A stretch of DNA of 46,359 nt, taken from IMG/VR virus record IMGVR_UViG_3300020202_000105, positions 1-46,359 of that record. One strand, 5' to 3'. Of the stretch, positions 5,809-43,776 are shown in pieces (position 1 is the first letter of the stretch; every line of letters begins with the position of its first letter). The position numbers were made by a program, and so were the translations under genes. This stretch comes from a virus. Below the pieces are notes generated by a model. The model saw only the letters and a program-made list of their open reading frames with translations. It ran no database searches and had not been told where the DNA came from.

Positions 5809-6927
5809 TTAATCACAAGTTTCGCAATCGTTACTTATAATATATCTCAATGTTCCTCTGTTTCCAGTAAGATCATCAGCGGCTTTATAAGCATTTGTTG
5901 GAATGTTATATAATCCAAACTGTTTGGACAGAATCAGGTTAAAGCCTTTTCCAAGTTCTCCTAAAGAATTACCTGAATAAGCATCGAAAAACTCCTGGGG
6001 GCAATCGTTGTATCTTAACTGAAAGTCAAAGTTTACCGCCTTAACATCGTTAGCCATTACCAAAGGCAAAGGAAGAACTCCGAAAGTTGAACCGCCCGGT
6101 TTAACTCCTGCTTTAAATCCTTGATAGCGTAGATATTCAACAATCTGAACTGCATCTTTTTCGAACACTCCGATTTGATTTGCAGCCCATTGTGTTGAAG
6201 AATCTTCATCATGGAAATAATCAAAAGCACCAGCCATTAATTTTGAATCAATACCAGCTTGGTCAGCTTGTTTGGCGAATTGCTGTAAAACATAGTTTAA
6301 CATTAATCCGTTACCAACTATTTGAGGACGACCTGAAAACTGGTTACGCTTGAAATCTGTTAAGATTTGAGTGATACCATCGTTCAAAGGATTTATTGTT
6401 GAATCCTTATTGATGTTTATTGTATCAGCAACGTTATTTCCTGTTCTTCGGTTTACACCAAATCGACCAGCTTGAAGTTGAAGCAAATCTCTGTTTACAG
6501 CGCCTATCAAGGAGTTTGAAGCAGTCATAACACTATCAATGAACTCATTCATCATTGATGTAGCAGGTTTACCTACACTAACTGTTTTACTTGCATCTTC
6601 GCAGTATTCAGCGATTGTTTCATCTTCGATATGAATTGCAATTTGTCTGTAACTTCCTACGGTTACAGTATCTTCTGTGTAAGAAGGTACAAGTGTATTA
6701 TCGCAACTTGCTACTGTATCAGTATCAGCTATGATAAACCGTTGTTTCTTTTTGATTTGAACAGTCTTCAAATGACCGTTGTAAGAATCATTTTTAATTA
6801 CACCCGGAGACATGCTTGTTAAAAGCATATTCGTAAATCCGTTGGGTTCTATTTTGTATTGTGGTGTCGCTTCTTTGGCGATCTCTCTTATATGTTGTAA
6901 TAAGTAGGGACAAAATCCATTAGCCAT
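5809..6927 (-). CDS. Major capsid protein
   Basis: This 372-residue protein is of major capsid size and is placed directly after a coiled-coil scaffold-like gene. An N-terminal helical/basic region is followed by long mixed alpha/beta sequence without enzyme motifs. The middle (GRPQIVGNGLMLNYVLQQFAKQAD) and the C-terminal segments look like an HK97-type capsid fold, but that cannot be proved by eye. The C-terminus ends in a CxxC pair (C368, C371). A short stem (GGCT/AGCC) follows the stop. Confidence 0.75.
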   Translation of the reverse strand: MANGFCPYLLQHIREIAKEATPQYKIEPNGFTNMLLTSMSPGVIKNDSYNGHLKTVQIKKKQRFIIADTDTVASCDNTLVPSYTEDTVTVGSYRQIAIHIEDETIAEYCEDASKTVSVGKPATSMMNEFIDSVMTASNSLIGAVNRDLLQLQAGRFGVNRRTGNNVADTININKDSTINPLNDGITQILTDFKRNQFSGRPQIVGNGLMLNYVLQQFAKQADQAGIDSKLMAGAFDYFHDEDSSTQWAANQIGVFEKDAVQIVEYLRYQGFKAGVKPGGSTFGVLPLPLVMANDVKAVNFDFQLRYNDCPQEFFDAYSGNSLGELGKGFNLILSKQFGLYNIPTNAYKAADDLTGNRGTLRYIISNDCETCD

Positions 6928-6960: not shown

Positions 6961-7839
6961 TTAGCTTTCGGCAACTCTCGACATGCTTTCAACAGAAGTA
7001 TTTATAGCAGCTTCGAATGAAGATGTATTTCTTTTGCTCGTTGACGGAGTTACCACTATTGGCGTTGCAGGAGTATTGTTATTTCCGCTAACAACCAATA
7101 ATTTGTTTTGTGCTAAAACCGAATCGGCAAAGTCCTTAATGGTAACAGGCTTATTATCTACATAATAATCTGTGTCGGTTGACGTTTTCAATTTTAGTTC
7201 ACCGTTTTCCCGTACTATTTTCACACCTTTTTCTTTCAAAGAATTTTCTAAAGCTATTTTTGCTGTACTTAATTTAAGTTCCTGTGCCATTTCTTTTGGT
7301 AAAGAATAGTTGTAGTCGCTTAAAATAGAGTTCAACTTAATATTAGTGAGTTCCGATTCGTGCTTATTTAATAAAGCATCGTATTCAGATTTGGCTATTG
7401 TACTGGATTTAAGCGTAGCTATTTGACCATTTAAGTCAGCTATCTGCCTGTCTAGTTCAGCTTTCTCACCGGGGGCTTTAGAAGCCTTTGACTTTTCGAG
7501 TTCTGCTACTTTTTTAATAAGTTGCGAAGTTCGTTTGTGAGTTGATTGCTCGCTTAACAATTCTTGTTTAACAGTATCTTCTAGTTGAAGGTCTGTCATA
7601 ATTTTGTTAAGTTCTGAATCAACACCGTTTAAAGCCTGTGCAAAGAAGTGTGATTTTAACGTGGGATTGTTTTTCGCAGAATCAAGAGTAAAATAATTAC
7701 TATTGATCTTTGACGCAATCGAATCAGGAATGTCTATACTAGCCAATTCCTTATTTTGAAGCAAAGACAAAAGCCCTGCATCATCTTTTGGTGTTCCGCT
7801 ATTAACGGCAAACGTGTTGAGAAAGTCTCCGATTTTCAT
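6961..7839 (-). CDS. Capsid scaffold-like coiled-coil protein
   Basis: This protein has 292 residues. The central part (about residues 95-180) is a long heptad-like coiled coil rich in Lys, Glu, Leu and Ala (KKVAELEKSKASKAPGEKAELDRQIADLNGQ). A Thr/Ser/Asn-rich linker leads to a short helical C-terminus (FEAAINTSVESMSRVAES) of the type that docks to coat protein. It lies directly upstream of the major capsid gene. This combination is characteristic of phage scaffolding proteins. No protease triad is visible. Confidence 0.7.
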   Translation of the reverse strand: MKIGDFLNTFAVNSGTPKDDAGLLSLLQNKELASIDIPDSIASKINSNYFTLDSAKNNPTLKSHFFAQALNGVDSELNKIMTDLQLEDTVKQELLSEQSTHKRTSQLIKKVAELEKSKASKAPGEKAELDRQIADLNGQIATLKSSTIAKSEYDALLNKHESELTNIKLNSILSDYNYSLPKEMAQELKLSTAKIALENSLKEKGVKIVRENGELKLKTSTDTDYYVDNKPVTIKDFADSVLAQNKLLVVSGNNNTPATPIVVTPSTSKRNTSSFEAAINTSVESMSRVAES

Positions 7840-7876: not shown

Positions 7877-7907
7877 TTTGGAAGTACTATGTAAATCAAT
7901 ATGTTTG
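7877..7907 (+). promoter_or_regulatory. Consensus Bacteroidota promoter of the plus-strand moron
   Basis: TTTG at 7877-7880 is followed after 19 nt by TATGTTTG at 7900-7907, an excellent match to the TTG-N17-23-TAnnTTTG promoter. Transcription should begin near 7914, and the first ATG is at 7933. It points rightwards, against the surrounding head genes. Confidence 0.75.
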
Positions 7908-7922
7908 TTATATTATATAACA
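7906..7922. promoter_or_regulatory. Perfect 17-bp palindrome, putative operator at the moron start site
   Basis: TGTTATATTATATAACA is a perfect inverted repeat, with 8-bp arms and a one-base centre. It covers the end of the -7 box and the predicted transcription start. A protein bound here would block the promoter. The half-site TGTTATAT also occurs at 41213-41220, just before the repressor ATG, so control by a phage or host regulator is plausible but unproved. Confidence 0.55.
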
Positions 7923-7932
7923 AGAAATAAGC

Positions 7933-8073
7933 ATGACAGCAAAACGTAAGAAGTGGAAAAAATGGCAATGTGCAATAATGAATTTAATTGATTTTAGATA
8001 TTGGAATTGTGATTGCCACTACCATGCCCCTTATGGTAAGGCTATAATGCTCGGATGCTCAAAACACGACTAA
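7933..8073 (+). CDS. Small Cys/His-rich protein of the moron
   Basis: This 46-residue protein has a basic start (MTAKRKKWKKWQC) and a C-terminal Cys/His pattern (NCDCHYHAPYGKAIMLGCSKHD) that could bind zinc. It is the first gene after the plus-strand promoter, with a leader of about 20 nt. The stop is followed at once by the next ATG (TAAACATG). The function is unknown. The compact CxCHxH...C..H arrangement argues for a real protein rather than chance. Confidence 0.6.
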   Translation: MTAKRKKWKKWQCAIMNLIDFRYWNCDCHYHAPYGKAIMLGCSKHD

Positions 8074-8075
8074 AC

Positions 8076-8279
8076 ATGAAAGAAAAACTTAAAAAAATTG
8101 TTTTATCAAGTGTAATGCTATTAATAGTCGCAATTATATTCTATTTACTAGGAGCATTTTGGGAATTATCATTTGATGTAACTATTTGGAAAGAGCGTAC
8201 ACGTGAAATAATAGCTGCAATATTCATTCTTCCAATGGTGTTTTGCGTTGTTGTCACAGCAATAATAATAACTGACTAA
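8076..8279 (+). CDS. Small two-helix membrane protein of the moron
   Basis: Starting at the ATG at 8076 (MKEKLKK) gives 67 residues. The ATG at 8055 would overlap the previous gene by 19 nt and is less likely. Two transmembrane segments are clear (VLSSVMLLIVAIIFYLLGAFW, then IIAAIFILPMVFCVVVTAIIITD), joined by a charged loop (WKERTRE). Small membrane proteins in prophage-expressed morons often act in superinfection exclusion. That role is only inferred here. Confidence 0.65.
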   Translation: MKEKLKKIVLSSVMLLIVAIIFYLLGAFWELSFDVTIWKERTREIIAAIFILPMVFCVVVTAIIITD

Positions 8280-8320
8280 TGAAATCGAAAAAGGTTAAAA
8301 AGAAATAAAAAGGATTTAAT

Positions 8321-8506
8321 ATGGCAATACCGCGTAAACCATTAGATGAGTGCAATACTGTACAAATAACCCTTTGCGGGGAAGCAAAGAAAAAGGTTGT
8401 TGAATTTCAGGACAGGTACAAAACAAAAACAGGGAGAGTGTTAAGCTATCCCTTAGCAATAATTAAAATGATTTTAGGATGCGATGAAAATAAAATACTT
8501 GAATGA
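8321..8506 (+). CDS. Small hypothetical protein, possibly ribbon-helix-helix-like
   Basis: This 61-residue protein contains TVQITLCGEAKKKVVEFQDRYKTKTGRVLSYPLAIIKMIL, with a short strand followed by two helices. This resembles the layout of CopG/Arc-type small DNA-binding proteins, where the strand 'VQITL' would pair in a dimer. It could regulate its own operon through the 7906-7922 palindrome. This is a pattern-level suggestion. Its stop overlaps the next ATG (ATGA at 8503-8506). Confidence 0.55.
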   Translation: MAIPRKPLDECNTVQITLCGEAKKKVVEFQDRYKTKTGRVLSYPLAIIKMILGCDENKILE

Positions 8507-8607
8507 ATCAGAGCGAAATACTTTGCGATAAATGTGGAACTAAATTAATTTCTAAAGGAGAAGAAGCTGTTGATGATATGCTTTTTGAATTGGGTATACC
8601 GTACTAA
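8503..8607 (+). CDS. Very small Cys-containing protein, end of the moron
   Basis: This 34-residue protein starts MNQSEILCDKCGTKLISKGEEAVDD. The CDKCGTKL motif is a typical half of a zinc ribbon. The ATG overlaps the previous TGA by 4 nt. Its TAA overlaps the stop codon of the convergent minus-strand MuF-like gene, so the two transcripts meet exactly here. The function is unknown. Confidence 0.5.
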   Translation: MNQSEILCDKCGTKLISKGEEAVDDMLFELGIPY

Positions 8608-9515
8608 GCAGCCCTTTTCCAGCCCCTAAATTTATCTCTTAATACTTGTGGGACTACCGCCTCTGATACTGGCATTAATTGATGTCCGCATCCGTAACCA
8701 CCTCTGTTTATAAAGAAATTAGTAGCATCAGTTCCTTCTATCAATCCTGATAAGCTTACTATTTTACCGTTAATTAAACCTTCTGTTATCTCTTTAAATT
8801 GTGAGATGTGAATATATTCCATTCCTTCTCCTTTGGCGTGAATTAAGGCTGTGCAAAATGGTCTGGAAGTTTTAATAAGTGAACCTACATACTTAAACCA
8901 TTCTAAGCCTAAATCATCTGTTACCGCTTTGTTATATTGTGCGGAATAGATATTTAAAGCATCAGTAGTTATTTGCTTAGTGTATCTACTTAATGCTCCC
9001 GGTTTCTTTTCTGTGCCTATTAAAAATGCTCTCATATCCTCCACAAGATCAGCATAGCTTCCTCCTGTTGTAATGTTCCTGTAAAGAATATCTCTTGTTT
9101 TTTCGCTTACATTTACACTTATTCCATTCTCAGTTAATTTTTCAATAGTTAGATCAATAGAGGTTTTTTTAATTTCTTTGAGCAGATTAAAAGGCTTGAA
9201 TTCTGTTGAAATAGCAGCGAAATAACTTGATTGAATTTTTGTAACCTCATCAAATGAATTAACAAAGTCCGTTACTTTGTCAGTATAGCTATCATTTAGA
9301 ACAATAGAATCTATTTCTCCTTTTATTTTTCCGATTAGCTTTAGATTTTCGGCTTGCTGCTGAACAGTCTTGGCGGGGATATGAAAATCCCTGCTCAACT
9401 CTAATATCCGTTTGTAAATCTGTTTCTGAATAGCAGGAATACCGCTATCAAAATCATCAATAGAATCTTCAATAGCTTTTACTAAATCGGAAATTATCTT
9501 ATCGCTATTCGGCAT
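8604..9515 (-). CDS. MuF-like (SPP1 gp7-type) minor head protein
   Basis: This protein has 303 residues. A helical N-terminal half is followed by a MuF-like C-terminal region: 'ITTDALNIYSAQYNKAVTDDLGLEWFKYVGSLIKTSRPFCTALI' then 'INRGGYGCGHQLMPVS'. The aromatic/Cys pattern with the final G-Y-G-C-G-H block is typical of phage Mu gpF / SPP1 gp7 proteins, which bind the portal and help DNA ejection and head assembly. It overlaps the end of the portal gene by 11 nt, the usual order. Confidence 0.75.
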   Translation of the reverse strand: MPNSDKIISDLVKAIEDSIDDFDSGIPAIQKQIYKRILELSRDFHIPAKTVQQQAENLKLIGKIKGEIDSIVLNDSYTDKVTDFVNSFDEVTKIQSSYFAAISTEFKPFNLLKEIKKTSIDLTIEKLTENGISVNVSEKTRDILYRNITTGGSYADLVEDMRAFLIGTEKKPGALSRYTKQITTDALNIYSAQYNKAVTDDLGLEWFKYVGSLIKTSRPFCTALIHAKGEGMEYIHISQFKEITEGLINGKIVSLSGLIEGTDATNFFINRGGYGCGHQLMPVSEAVVPQVLRDKFRGWKRAA

Positions 9516-11262
9516 CGACAGAAGGTTCTAATTTTTCTTTTACTTTTTCTGCTGCTGAACTTTTTTTGGCAATCTCCTGAGCATACTTTCTTAATACTTC
9601 CAGTTTTTCAGCATATGGCTTATTTAGAAAATCATTATCCTCTTCAACTGCCCTGCGAACAAAAGGTACAATATAACAACTAATAATATAATCCTCTTGT
9701 AAAATCCCTTTATTCATTAGTCTTACAAGCTTTTCGTCTTCGCTTAATGAAGGCAAAGGGTCAAGCTCTAAAGAGGTTTTAACCAAGTCCCTTATTCCTG
9801 CATCGGTGTTAAACTTCTTATTCGCATACTCTATTTCTAGAGCGTTAATTATAAAAGGGTTTGACTTACTCTTTTTTGCTTTTTCTATCTGATCTGCCAA
9901 ATAAGTTTCTGAAATAATATCGAACTTTTCAGGAACAGAAATTTTAGGTAATTGCTTTTCTCTTTCTTCGGGAGACAGAATAAATTTATATCTCCATTCG
10001 TTAGTGAAATAGTAAATATCATCAAGAATGCTTATTATGTCCTCGGCTATATCATAAACAAAGGCATTAAGCTCGCTTCTGTCCAATTCCTTTGCTACGC
10101 CAGACTGATTAAGATTAGCGGCTAAGAACTCAAAGTTAATAGCACTCAGAGCGCGATATAAATGTTTATCAATTCTTTCGTCCTGTATTTTAATTATGCC
10201 TGTGTCTTTATCAATATAATAAGCTACCGGAGTGGGCAAGGGTTGTTCACTTGCCATTGTTGGCCTTATAACAATATCTTCGTAAGGACTTGTTGGTATT
10301 CCCCCATCCCCCTTACAAACTCCACATACTTGAGTAACCGCTTCTTTACCTTCTCTTACCAACACCTTGCCCGTTCCGTTACAGGTTTTACATTTGGCGT
10401 TAGTATGAATAACCATTGTAGGGAACATATGTTTACATACCGAAGCTTGCATATCTGAATATTCTCTTGCTGCTTCATTCCAAGAGGCCACACATGGATA
10501 GATGCGGCTTTTGTATACAAGATGGTCTCCTATTTGTTCAGAAAATACTCCTCGCATCTTTCTACAAGGAAGGAATCCTAAATCATGTTTATTAATAAGC
10601 TCTAGTTTGTATTCTCCTTTGGCGTTATACTCTTTTGCTACCCAAAATTCCTCAGTAGTGTATATGTATATTATATTCCCTTCATATGTTTTTTTATTTT
10701 CTACAAATACATTCTTTTCTTTACTTAACAAAACTGCATACTGATTATAGGCATAATCCAATACCTGTGATGAATTATAAATAATGGGTACTGGTGTTAA
10801 ATAGGAATTATCTACCGGAAAATAAGAAGGAGAAACAGCTATAATAGCGTTTGAATCTATCGTATACTCTCTTAGTCCGAGAGAAAAAAACCAATTTGTT
10901 ATAGAGGTATAATTAGGAAAATTTAATTCCGTATAGCTTTGCAGGCTTTCTTCTTCCGGAACTCGTTTTGTTATTTCTTTAGGATGTTGGATAGACCAGT
11001 CTTGTGATTTTCTTATCTTGCCCAAAGATGTAGAAATCTTGCTAAATGGCTGCTCTGTTTGGGATTCAAATATTTCCTTTCTGTACTCAAATAGTTTTTT
11101 GCTTTCGCTAGGCCGTCTTTCTCCAATTAGCTTTTTAGGAAATTCGCCATCTGCATGAACTCTTAATTTTTCTTCTAATTCAACTGTTTTTTCGTAAGCT
11201 TTGTGTCTTACTTTGTCAAAAACATACTGACCTAAAAAGTCAGCGTTTATTTTTATTGCCAT
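9505..11262 (-). CDS. Portal protein with an inserted zinc finger
   Basis: This 585-residue protein is portal-sized and lies directly upstream of the MuF-like gene. The first 280 residues include the mixed clip/wing-like region, and residues 370-480 are helical (EFLAANLNQSGVAKELDRSELNAFVYDIAEDII), as in portal stems and wings. At 291-294 and 313-316 are two CxxCxGxG-type motifs, as in DnaJ zinc fingers, forming a likely Cys4 zinc site. This is unusual for a portal. The C-terminus is helical and charged. Confidence 0.75.
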   Translation of the reverse strand: MAIKINADFLGQYVFDKVRHKAYEKTVELEEKLRVHADGEFPKKLIGERRPSESKKLFEYRKEIFESQTEQPFSKISTSLGKIRKSQDWSIQHPKEITKRVPEEESLQSYTELNFPNYTSITNWFFSLGLREYTIDSNAIIAVSPSYFPVDNSYLTPVPIIYNSSQVLDYAYNQYAVLLSKEKNVFVENKKTYEGNIIYIYTTEEFWVAKEYNAKGEYKLELINKHDLGFLPCRKMRGVFSEQIGDHLVYKSRIYPCVASWNEAAREYSDMQASVCKHMFPTMVIHTNAKCKTCNGTGKVLVREGKEAVTQVCGVCKGDGGIPTSPYEDIVIRPTMASEQPLPTPVAYYIDKDTGIIKIQDERIDKHLYRALSAINFEFLAANLNQSGVAKELDRSELNAFVYDIAEDIISILDDIYYFTNEWRYKFILSPEEREKQLPKISVPEKFDIISETYLADQIEKAKKSKSNPFIINALEIEYANKKFNTDAGIRDLVKTSLELDPLPSLSEDEKLVRLMNKGILQEDYIISCYIVPFVRRAVEEDNDFLNKPYAEKLEVLRKYAQEIAKKSSAAEKVKEKLEPSVDAE

Positions 11263-12126
11263 TTAGATTTTACTTCTTTCGGTGAGGTATTTGCTTTTGT
11301 TTTGGGCAGGAAAGAATGAAGGTTTCAGCCCCAATTTATTATGATAGTATACCATCATATTGTCATAAAATTCTTTTTGATTTTTTGAAGCATGAGCACC
11401 TCCCATGCTATAACCATAATAATTTTCATTAATATATGGGTCAATTTTTTTTACATATCTTTTTTCCGCATGAGACCAGTAAACAGGTGTAAAATTCTCC
11501 ACATGAGGATAAATATTATTAATTATACAACTTAATCCAAATGCAAGCTCATCAGCCATTCCATCTGCAAATAAATTATAATCTGATTTTGGATTATCGT
11601 AAATTTCTTTTGCGGTATCAAAGAACTGCTTTACTCTTTCTGTTTTTTTAAAATAAATAAATTCACTACTCAGTTGAAACCATTTACCATCTAACTTATA
11701 GACTTCTCTGAACTTTCTTAGGTCTGCCCATTGGCTTGTTTTTTCATCTGCTATGGATATATCAGAGCTTCCCCTGTTTGCAATAGTTAATTCAACGTTT
11801 TTAAGCTCATCGAATAAATAAGATATTTTCTTCTGATTAAGAACAATCATATCCGCATCCAGGAATATAGTTTCATCAAAAGGCGAGAAATCATAAATAT
11901 AGGTTTTGGCTTTTATAGGCTGAATGGTATTGTTTTTGCTGTATTTATCTAGTGAAGGTTCTTCTATACTATCAAAATATCTTTTTTGATAACCTTCTAA
12001 ATAGTGGACATTATTAGTAACAAGGTGAATAGGGATATTCTCATTTGCTTTTAATGATAAAGCTAACTGGTGAGCCATCCTTATATAGTAAGGATTTCCT
12101 AATGATATTAGAACTATTCCTTTCAT
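11263..12126 (-). CDS. GT8-like glycosyltransferase
   Basis: This protein has 287 residues. It begins with a Rossmann-like segment (GIVLISLGNPYYIRMAHQLALSL), has a DXD metal motif at 90-92 (FLDADMIVL) after IYDFSPFDETI, and later an acceptor-side region (WFQLSSEFIYFKK). This resembles nucleotide-sugar transferases of the GT-A fold near family GT8. It lies between tail and portal genes, apart from the main glycan cassette, so a role in glycosylating a virion protein is attractive but unproved. It abuts the portal start and overlaps the previous gene by 4 nt. Confidence 0.65.
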   Translation of the reverse strand: MKGIVLISLGNPYYIRMAHQLALSLKANENIPIHLVTNNVHYLEGYQKRYFDSIEEPSLDKYSKNNTIQPIKAKTYIYDFSPFDETIFLDADMIVLNQKKISYLFDELKNVELTIANRGSSDISIADEKTSQWADLRKFREVYKLDGKWFQLSSEFIYFKKTERVKQFFDTAKEIYDNPKSDYNLFADGMADELAFGLSCIINNIYPHVENFTPVYWSHAEKRYVKKIDPYINENYYGYSMGGAHASKNQKEFYDNMMVYYHNKLGLKPSFFPAQNKSKYLTERSKI

Positions 12127-41197: not shown

Positions 41198-41220
41198 AGA
41201 GTTATTAACAATTGTTATAT

Positions 41221-41937
41221 ATGACTGAAAATCAAAGATTTAAAATTATCAGGGAAGAACTGGGTCTAGACCAATCAGTTTTTGGTGGGTATATCGAATT
41301 GAAGCAAGGAACGGTATCTGATATAGAGAGGGGCAAGGCTGGAGTGTCTTCAAAGGTTTTAAAAAAACTGTTAGATAATTTGGGGGTTAATCCAGAATAT
41401 ATTAAGGAAGGGAAGCTCCCTAAATTTATAGATGAAAGTAAAAAAATCAGTATAAATACGGATTTTTCGAATGTTAAAAGTTACGACATTAGCGACGGGA
41501 AAAGGAACATGTATATAGTGCCATTGAAGGCAGTAGGAGGATTTTTGAACGGATACGAAGACACAGCATTTTTAAATACTTTAGAAAAGGTTAGTAATCC
41601 TAATGTAAAAGGAGAATCATTTCAATTTGAAGTTACTGGATTCTCTATGGTAAAGAAGGGTAACTCAAGGGAAAGTTATTATCCGGGAGATAAAATAGTG
41701 TGTACTATTATTGAAAAAATAGAATGGCTGCAAAAAGGAAAAATATATTTATTTCAGGCAAAAAAATCAATTGGTGATGGTGACGGACTTTCATTAAAAC
41801 GATTTAATGGTATGGAAGGTAATCATCTTATATTGGTTGCAAATGACCCTGAGTATGGAACAATAAAGCTACATGCAAAAGATTTAGTGCGGGTTTATTA
41901 CATAGAAGAACATTCTTGGAATCCCAATAGTAAATAG
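41221..41937 (+). CDS. CI-like repressor (HTH_XRE plus S24-type domain)
   Basis: This 238-residue protein starts at the ATG at 41221; the TTG at 41212 is less likely. Residues ~5-60 form an XRE helix-turn-helix (LDQSVFGGYIELKQGTVSDIERGKAGVS). The C-terminal half is S24/LexA-like, with Ser142 in VTGFSM and Lys193 in LSLKRF. The usual Ala-Gly cleavage site is not obvious; AVGGF at 104-108 is the nearest. It represses the leftward promoter from the operators at 41166-41197. Confidence 0.85.
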   Translation: MTENQRFKIIREELGLDQSVFGGYIELKQGTVSDIERGKAGVSSKVLKKLLDNLGVNPEYIKEGKLPKFIDESKKISINTDFSNVKSYDISDGKRNMYIVPLKAVGGFLNGYEDTAFLNTLEKVSNPNVKGESFQFEVTGFSMVKKGNSRESYYPGDKIVCTIIEKIEWLQKGKIYLFQAKKSIGDGDGLSLKRFNGMEGNHLILVANDPEYGTIKLHAKDLVRVYYIEEHSWNPNSK

Positions 41938-41964: not shown

Positions 41965-42345
41965 GTGAAAAAATTACTAATTATCTTATTATTCATTTCC
42001 TTCAATTCATTTGCTCAGGATAGCATTCAGGATTTATTAGACGACAGGGATTATTTGGTTACTAAAGTAAGTGAGCTTGATTACAAGTTGAAAAAGATAG
42101 ACGAATACCAAAAGAATAATATTTATACCTCTGGAACGTATTTAAAAAAAGCTGCTAGTAGTTATTATACTTCTTTGGGAATATCAGCAGGCAGTATTTT
42201 GCTTACCGGAATAGGCATAGGGGTAAAGAGTAATTTTCTAACAGTAGTTGGTGCAGGATTAGGCGTAGTCTCTTTTGGATTTAAAATTAACGCATGGAAT
42301 AATGTAGGTAAATCGGGTAAGGCATTAAATAATGAAATTGAGTAA
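41965..42345 (+). CDS. Secreted/periplasmic protein downstream of the repressor
   Basis: This 126-residue protein has a GTG start at 41965. A clear signal peptide MKKLLIILLFISFNSFAQ ends in an A-Q cleavage-like site. A coiled coil follows (DDRDYLVTKVSELDYKLKKIDEYQK), then two Gly-rich hydrophobic segments (YTSLGISAGSILLTGIGIGV, FLTVVGAGLGVVSFGFKI). It is transcribed with the repressor, so it is likely to be expressed in lysogens and to alter the host envelope. Confidence 0.65.
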   Translation: MKKLLIILLFISFNSFAQDSIQDLLDDRDYLVTKVSELDYKLKKIDEYQKNNIYTSGTYLKKAASSYYTSLGISAGSILLTGIGIGVKSNFLTVVGAGLGVVSFGFKINAWNNVGKSGKALNNEIE

Positions 42346-42669: not shown

Positions 42670-43776
42670 ATGACAATCAAACCTGTATTGTGGTATAAAA
42701 AAAAGTCTGACGGAACAAAGCACATTAAAATATGTCTCATTAAAGACCGTGATAAAGATTATTATTCTCTTAATATTTATACGTATGCAGACAAGATAGG
42801 AAGCGATTATATGCAATGGATTGACGGACGGGTATCAAACGCAATACATATTAATCTAAAAATTAAAGAAGCATTAGATAAGTTTCAGTTGCTCTATCTG
42901 CAAAACCCTAATATCTCAATTAAAGAAATAAAAGAACTATATGACAGTGAGCCTATAAATGATTTTTATGAATTTTATGAGAATCAACTCGACCTGCAAA
43001 AGAAAAAAATATCAAAAAGCACTATAAAGACATACGGACAACTAAAGGAAAGCCTTAAAAGCTTTTCTCCTAAACTTGGTTTTGAAAAAATAGATTATGA
43101 ATTTCTTTCTCGTTACGAAGGGTTTTTAAAAGAATCAGGACTACGCCAAACCACGGTATATAAGCGGATGAAAATATTTAAGATGTACGTCAATGAAGCT
43201 TTTAAAATGGGAAGGATTAAAGCAAACCCTTTTCAATCCTATAAACTAAAAGACGGGACAAGTAACCGTACATTTTTGGACAAAGTTAGTTTGCAAAAGA
43301 TTGTTGATTGTGATAAGCTTAATAAATACGAGGACGAGGTTAGAAAGAAGTTTTTATTTCAATGTTATACAGGGCTTTCTTTTTCAGACCTTATATCTTT
43401 AAGATGGTCTGAGATAAGAGATAACGCCATATACAGAGAGAGAATAAAAACCAAAGAACCTATAATCATCCCTCTTATACCCGAAGCACAACAGATTTTA
43501 AAGAACCAGAAAAAAGAAGGGGAATATATTTTTTCTAAAATTTCTAATCAGAAGTATAACGAATTCCTTCATTGTATAGAAGATAGACTTGAATTTTCTA
43601 TACCTCTCACCTCTCACGTAGCAAGACATACATTTGCTACTTTAGCTTTGGATTCAGGAGTTAGTATAGCTGTTGTTAGTTCTGTACTTGGGCATTCTAA
43701 TATAAGAACTACACAAATTTACGCTAAGATTACCAAAAGATTAAAAGTAGAGGAAATGCAGAAGCTAAGGTTTTAA
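42670..43776 (+). CDS. int: Tyrosine recombinase / phage integrase
   Basis: This 368-residue protein has an N-terminal arm- and core-binding region (EFYENQLDLQKKKISKSTIKTYGQL) typical of Bacteroidota integrases. The catalytic domain has H316, R319, H342 and the nucleophile Y351 (SHVARHTF, LGHSN, TQIYAKI), and a candidate Lys at 260 or 262. The position usually holding the first catalytic Arg, in TGLSFSDL, is Ser237, as in IntDOT of the CTnDOT element. It integrates the phage through attP, which lies just upstream. Confidence 0.9.
   Translation: MTIKPVLWYKKKSDGTKHIKICLIKDRDKDYYSLNIYTYADKIGSDYMQWIDGRVSNAIHINLKIKEALDKFQLLYLQNPNISIKEIKELYDSEPINDFYEFYENQLDLQKKKISKSTIKTYGQLKESLKSFSPKLGFEKIDYEFLSRYEGFLKESGLRQTTVYKRMKIFKMYVNEAFKMGRIKANPFQSYKLKDGTSNRTFLDKVSLQKIVDCDKLNKYEDEVRKKFLFQCYTGLSFSDLISLRWSEIRDNAIYRERIKTKEPIIIPLIPEAQQILKNQKKEGEYIFSKISNQKYNEFLHCIEDRLEFSIPLTSHVARHTFATLALDSGVSIAVVSSVLGHSNIRTTQIYAKITKRLKVEEMQKLRF

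Follow-up and report, generated by a model that had tools for sequence, protein, structure and literature searches.

The locus under study raises the question of why four short open reading frames (ORFs) should run against the late genes in the middle of a phage head module, and of whether they represent an accessory gene set with a control of its own. The window, by which we mean the whole stretch of DNA analysed here, is the complete IMG/VR record IMGVR_UViG_3300020202_000105 (46,359 bases) and, judged by its gene content, is from an uncultured temperate phage of Bacteroidota. Nearly all genes of the window are located on the minus strand, with a CI-like HTH/S24 repressor (41212-41937, plus strand) and a tyrosine integrase (42670-43776, plus strand) among the exceptions. 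The head module is arranged on the minus strand in the order portal (9505-11262), MuF-like minor head protein (8604-9515), scaffold-like protein (6961-7839) and putative major capsid protein (MCP; 5809-6927), and the MuF-like and scaffold-like genes border a gap of 764 nt.

The four plus-strand genes that the first-pass annotation had placed in this gap, opposing the late operon, are present as described, their ORFs (46, 67, 61 and 34 aa) filling 94% of positions 7933-8607. The lead ORF (7933-8073) specifies a basic, Cys/His-containing protein of 46 aa for which no relative was found. It is followed, 2 nt past its stop codon, by the 67-aa ORF (8076-8279), whose start was set at 8076, the program-made ORF list beginning it at 8055; hydropathy analysis of the product predicts two TM stretches (residues ~8-27 and 45-66) and thus bears out the earlier designation of a two-TM membrane protein. 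The third ORF (8321-8506) encodes a 61-aa protein, probably an RHH-type DNA-binding protein, and the start of the fourth (8503-8607) overlaps the stop of the third in an ATGA sequence. The 34-aa product of this last ORF contains a single CxxC motif, and the name “zinc-half-ribbon” previously given to it could not be established by sequence search. Its stop codon is interleaved with that of the MuF-like gene on the opposite strand (8604-8607), and the same 4-nt stop overlap between the last reverse gene and MuF was observed at two other loci (L005 and L055).

Considering that short frames may open by chance in an AT-rich spacer, the chain formed by these ORFs (657 nt) was compared with that obtained from dinucleotide shuffles of the same stretch, where it had a mean of 107 nt and a maximum of 495 nt, none of 2,000 shuffles reaching the observed value, while the minus strand of the gap contains no ATG-initiated ORF of at least 33 aa. 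The 61- and 34-aa ORFs resemble genes in their codon usage, which is close to neutral in the 46- and 67-aa ORFs, and the GC content of the cassette is 0.309 as compared to 0.341 for the whole window. Family searches with the four proteins in Pfam, PHROGs and PADLOC gave nothing usable, and database searches found no homologues. A spacer with fortuitous open frames would agree with this lack of homologues and with the neutral codon usage of the first two ORFs, yet such an origin is very improbable in view of the length of the chain, its restriction to one strand, the tight spacing of the ORFs with their ATGA overlap, the predicted promoter in place ahead of them and the recurrence of the architecture in relatives (see below).

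This promoter was assessed using the consensus published for Bacteroidota (TTTG/TAnnTTTG; PMC7366714 and PMC9723704). By consensus match, a TTTG corresponding to the -33 element of a Bacteroidota sigma-A-type promoter is located at 7877-7880 (plus strand) and is followed, after 19 nt, by the predicted -7 element TATGTTTG at 7900-7907. The combination TTTG-N19-TATGTTTG (7877-7907) is the sole exact match to the pattern TTTG-N19-TANNTTTG on either strand of the window and is the predicted promoter proposed in the first-pass annotation. The predicted -7 box and start site are overlapped by a perfect 19-bp palindrome, TTGTTATATTATATAACAA (7905-7923), which reads TTGTTATAT-T-ATATAACAA, is 1 bp longer on each side than first reported, and represents a candidate operator. 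No other perfect inverted repeat in the window has arms of at least 9 nt and a loop of up to 3 nt; however, shuffles lead one to expect about 1.5 such repeats genome-wide, and therefore only its placement over the -7 box is noteworthy (local shuffle p = 0.01). The idea that it is a copy of a CI operator, or a site for a repressor that it has in common with the CI region, was rejected since the window holds no second copy with up to three mismatches. Other cassettes show neither an enrichment of palindromes nor this particular sequence. The operator proposed earlier thus stands as a perfect palindrome at the predicted start site of the window, but not as a feature of the family.

Searches for cultured-phage relatives of the window gap, the 61-aa protein, the portal and the capsid protein yielded none, only distant terminase matches being obtained, and a comparison of the portal of L021, the MuF protein of L055 and the RHH protein of L035 with cultured phages gave no relative beyond one weak partial match. 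The window portal, used as a query, retrieved two contigs (L003 and L004), and a portal alignment retrieved one contig from a Bacteroidota MAG (L005); searching for the portal across the phylum led back only to this known MAG. Single-protein scans of viral contigs for MuF and MCP were unsuccessful, and an alignment of MuF proteins used as query produced 80 viral contigs. Based on profiles of the portal, MuF, scaffold and capsid proteins, the order portal-MuF-gap-scaffold-MCP was recognized in approximately 75 loci. The MuF-scaffold site is syntenic across these loci and its contents vary from phage to phage: the gap measures between 248 nt and about 10 kb, its commonest content is a single late-strand ORF, and one locus (L031) carries, instead of a reverse RHH block, an insertion on the late strand that includes an HNH-like gene. 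The nearest kin of the window in the MuF tree (L010, L011, L014 and L015) possess gaps of 248-336 nt without a reverse gene block, and because of this the window block is read as an addition relative to these four phages, which are themselves distant from the window (MuF identity of only ~42-47%).

Reverse-strand blocks with a small RHH-like gene occupy the same junction in about 23 other lineages, and range in size from one gene to about 10 kb. Almost every reverse block includes the small RHH-like gene, frequently in the lead position, and RHH-bearing reverse blocks are found in 15 of 29 MuF clusters, the window included. When an RHH profile was run against all ORFs of the loci, matches were confined to the MuF-scaffold gap, apparent exceptions in L032 and L035 being due to very long gaps. 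The same profile matched only two genomes in sets of 148 and 395 Bacteroidota genomes, both at the MuF-scaffold junction, and one RHH-bearing junction in a Bacteroidota genome (L093) was reached by the RHH profile alone. A second survey started from other MuF proteins and provided 24 contigs new to the analysis, eight of which contain an RHH gene that in all eight cases is reverse-oriented and located within the gap, downstream of MuF. From this comparison of loci, the MuF-scaffold junction is a recurrent cargo site with predicted control of its own, rather than a one-off oddity.

The cargo that accompanies the RHH-like gene is diverse. The gap of L005 holds four small reverse genes and that of L055 three, while glycosyltransferase, FkbM methyltransferase or epimerase genes are present in the reverse blocks of L004, L019, L028, L032 and L035, such glycan-modifying operons extending up to about 10 kb. 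The cargo families identified include FkbM methyltransferase, GT25 and epimerase, and orphan genes occur as well. One reverse block (L066) lacks an RHH gene; the MuF-scaffold gap of this locus contains a reverse-strand gene for a Gly-rich, tail-fibre-like protein of 557 aa (L066:1279-2952). Separately, one RHH-like protein (L026:11455-11739) was seen to carry an N-terminal Cys-rich, zinc-finger-like extension. The gap of L103 (10900-12160), and the same stretch in L102, consists of irregular tandem repeats rich in CATATG/TGCATA; open frames within it read as His/Cys/Met-rich peptides, and it is probably repetitive DNA rather than genes.

The 61-aa protein of the window is the positional equivalent of the RHH gene of the relatives, and the term “RHH-like” that had been applied to it, which could not be established by sequence search, is plausible, although the protein is missed in a leave-one-out profile test. 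In leave-one-out tests, all members of the RHH family were recovered (E 0.0075 or better) except the window protein (E 170), whereas hhalign aligned the latter in register with the family (E 0.037). An AlphaFold2 model built with the family alignment predicts an extended segment (residues 11-18) followed by two helices (20-37 and 43-52) at a mean pLDDT of 79; modelled alone, the protein gave a less certain prediction (pLDDT 67, helix 13-37). The weak structural matches obtained with VIA-align include the RHH proteins TraM (Z 3.9) and MazE-mt1 (Z 2.8). Neither this protein nor its counterparts matched RHH families of Pfam, PHROGs or NCBIfam, and PDB profile searches and Foldseek with the RHH family returned no significant match. 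With moderate evidence from fold agreement and profile alignment, we consider the 61-aa protein to be probably an RHH-type DNA-binding protein. A further locus found with this protein as query (L002) was discarded, the match being fortuitous and internal to a 239-aa frame.

Antitoxins are commonly of the RHH type, and the RHH-type gene together with a neighbour might accordingly stabilise the cassette or the prophage as a toxin-antitoxin or addiction module. The MazE-mt1 antitoxin among the structural matches and the position of the RHH gene beside small orphan genes in some cassettes would fit such a module, but the RHH gene is the sole reverse gene in L057 and L110, its partners change from phage to phage and the window proteins match no toxin family, so that we regard this explanation as unlikely.

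A different role is suggested by the fact that the cargo site abuts MuF, which in temperate phages may carry a polymorphic toxin with small ORFs of putative immunity function behind it (PMC5576092; Bxa, PMC11699363). These loci resemble the window in being downstream of portal and MuF, in occurring in temperate phages and in having small ORFs beside MuF, and an ADP-ribosyltransferase domain (PF03496, E 5e-6) was detected at the C-terminus of the MuF protein of L055 (9998-11518). In contrast to the toxin loci, however, the small genes of the window are reversed and have their own predicted promoter, and the window MuF is short (303 aa), aligning end to end with other short MuF proteins and lacking a C-terminal toxin extension; a short MuF is also found in many carriers. 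It is therefore hardly credible that the block provides immunity to, or control of, a MuF-linked toxin. C-terminal MuF extensions without a Pfam match were also noted in L005, L018, L034, L035 and L057.

The control of the cassettes was examined across lineages. In 11 of 15 cassettes the element TANNTTTG lies no more than 75 nt upstream of the reverse lead gene, as compared to 1.5 expected, none of 1,000 shuffles reaching this number; ahead of late genes it occurs in 0-3 of 13 cases. This promoter test, and a TTGT-N9-11-ACAA dyad that had been noticed post hoc in four lineages (and that accompanies 13 of 1,146 background TANNTTTG sites), were set down before the second survey was performed. 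In that survey seven of eight cassettes had TANNTTTG ahead of the lead gene at a distance of up to 75 nt (0.54 expected), and none of the eight had the dyad, which was dropped as a shared operator rule for the family. The lead genes of the cassettes thus carry a predicted promoter motif of the host housekeeping type.

Our preferred reading, which we hold to be rather probable, is that the MuF-scaffold junction is a recurrent cargo site of a large lineage of uncultured Bacteroidota phages, and that the four genes of the window represent one reversed cargo set, driven by a host-type promoter and tuned by its RHH-type protein. The host RNA polymerase would transcribe the cassette from a promoter belonging to the cassette itself and outside late-gene control, which in the temperate phage of the window would happen mainly during lysogeny. 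This promoter would be tuned or repressed by the RHH-type protein, for which the palindrome over the -7 box may be the site of action in the window. Late transcription, being antisense to the cassette, would later override it. A consensus scan detected no intrinsic terminator on the plus strand after 8503, although such scans miss other terminators, and cassette transcripts may for this reason continue antisense into MuF. The earlier proposal of a moron with local control is accordingly upheld as to an added reverse cassette with its own predicted promoter, now with counterparts in about 23 other lineages, but the palindromic operator is not borne out as a feature of the family.

The temperate gene content of the window phage agrees with an expression of the cassette in the lysogen. 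Integrase genes were detected among RHH carriers in the window and in the contigs of L055 and L057, and among non-carriers in L087, and no clear link between the RHH cassette and a temperate lifestyle, as indicated by integrase presence, was observed. Since most RHH-bearing contigs have no detectable integrase, the description “lysogeny-expressed” cannot be generalised to all cassettes. The reverse block could instead be an early-infection operon, whose host-type promoter fires at genome entry so that host surface or virion glycans are remodelled before late transcription. The long glycan-modifying operons of L019, L032 and L035 would suit this role, as would the scarcity of integrase and S24 repressor genes among carriers; however, many contigs are fragments, which weakens the argument from missing integrases, the three integrase-bearing carriers point the other way, and L005 and L093 derive from host assemblies. 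We regard an early-infection operon as possible, though not as the favoured explanation.

Under the preferred reading of a host-promoter-driven cargo set, the two-TM protein and the two tiny Cys-containing proteins that make up the cargo of the window most likely have the host cell as their target, and the leading guess is an effect at the membrane, for instance exclusion of superinfecting phages; the function of the cargo is a guess because none of the four proteins has a relative. In relatives with recognisable cargo, an effect on the cell surface or the virion is reasonable, given that this cargo consists of glycan-modifying enzymes. More speculatively, and with considerable doubt on our part, the tiny RHH-type regulators may be a fixed part of a modular cargo bay within the capsid operon, holding varied cargo under the control of one shared type of host-like promoter, and transcription that runs on into MuF and portal in antisense may help to silence the head genes until the late phase.

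Reverse-oriented morons in late regions are already known, the clearest parallel being pid of P22 (PMC3573128), which comprises only one gene, has a Rho-independent terminator and belongs to another phage and host, whereas the window cassette contains an RHH-like gene and a predicted Bacteroidota promoter, shows no terminator by scan, and occupies a site that recurs lineage-wide. Accessory loci of Salmonella prophages likewise possess their own promoter (predicted in the case of the window) and are antisense to lytic genes, which is called characteristic of prophage morons (PMC7067206). Expression is demonstrated for the Salmonella loci and predicted for the window cassette, and the passages considered do not mention a small conserved DNA-binding gene that accompanies those loci. 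What is new, as far as the compared loci indicate, is that one site is kept throughout a lineage for cargo that changes, together with a small putative DNA-binding gene that recurs. A single odd spacer thereby becomes a rule: accessory genes of this lineage can be collected straight from the MuF-scaffold junction, among them genes for glycan modification and possible exclusion factors, with the RHH-like gene as a marker of such cassettes. The window cassette in turn offers a testable case of two opposed transcription programmes within one capsid operon.

Further observations concern the remainder of the window. The portal-like protein contains a zinc-ribbon-like insert with the pattern CxxC...CxxC (residues ~291-316) that is conserved across the lineage. 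The portal gene is adjoined by a putative glycosyltransferase-like gene (11263-12126, minus strand), counterparts of which (31-42% identity) are located at the equivalent place in L003, L004 and L005; because this position is kept, the late-strand sugar-transfer-like gene seems to belong to the core head module in this lineage. Finally, a gene directly after the CI-like repressor (41965-42345, plus strand) encodes a 126-aa protein with a signal-peptide-like start, and is a candidate for a second lysogeny-expressed accessory gene.
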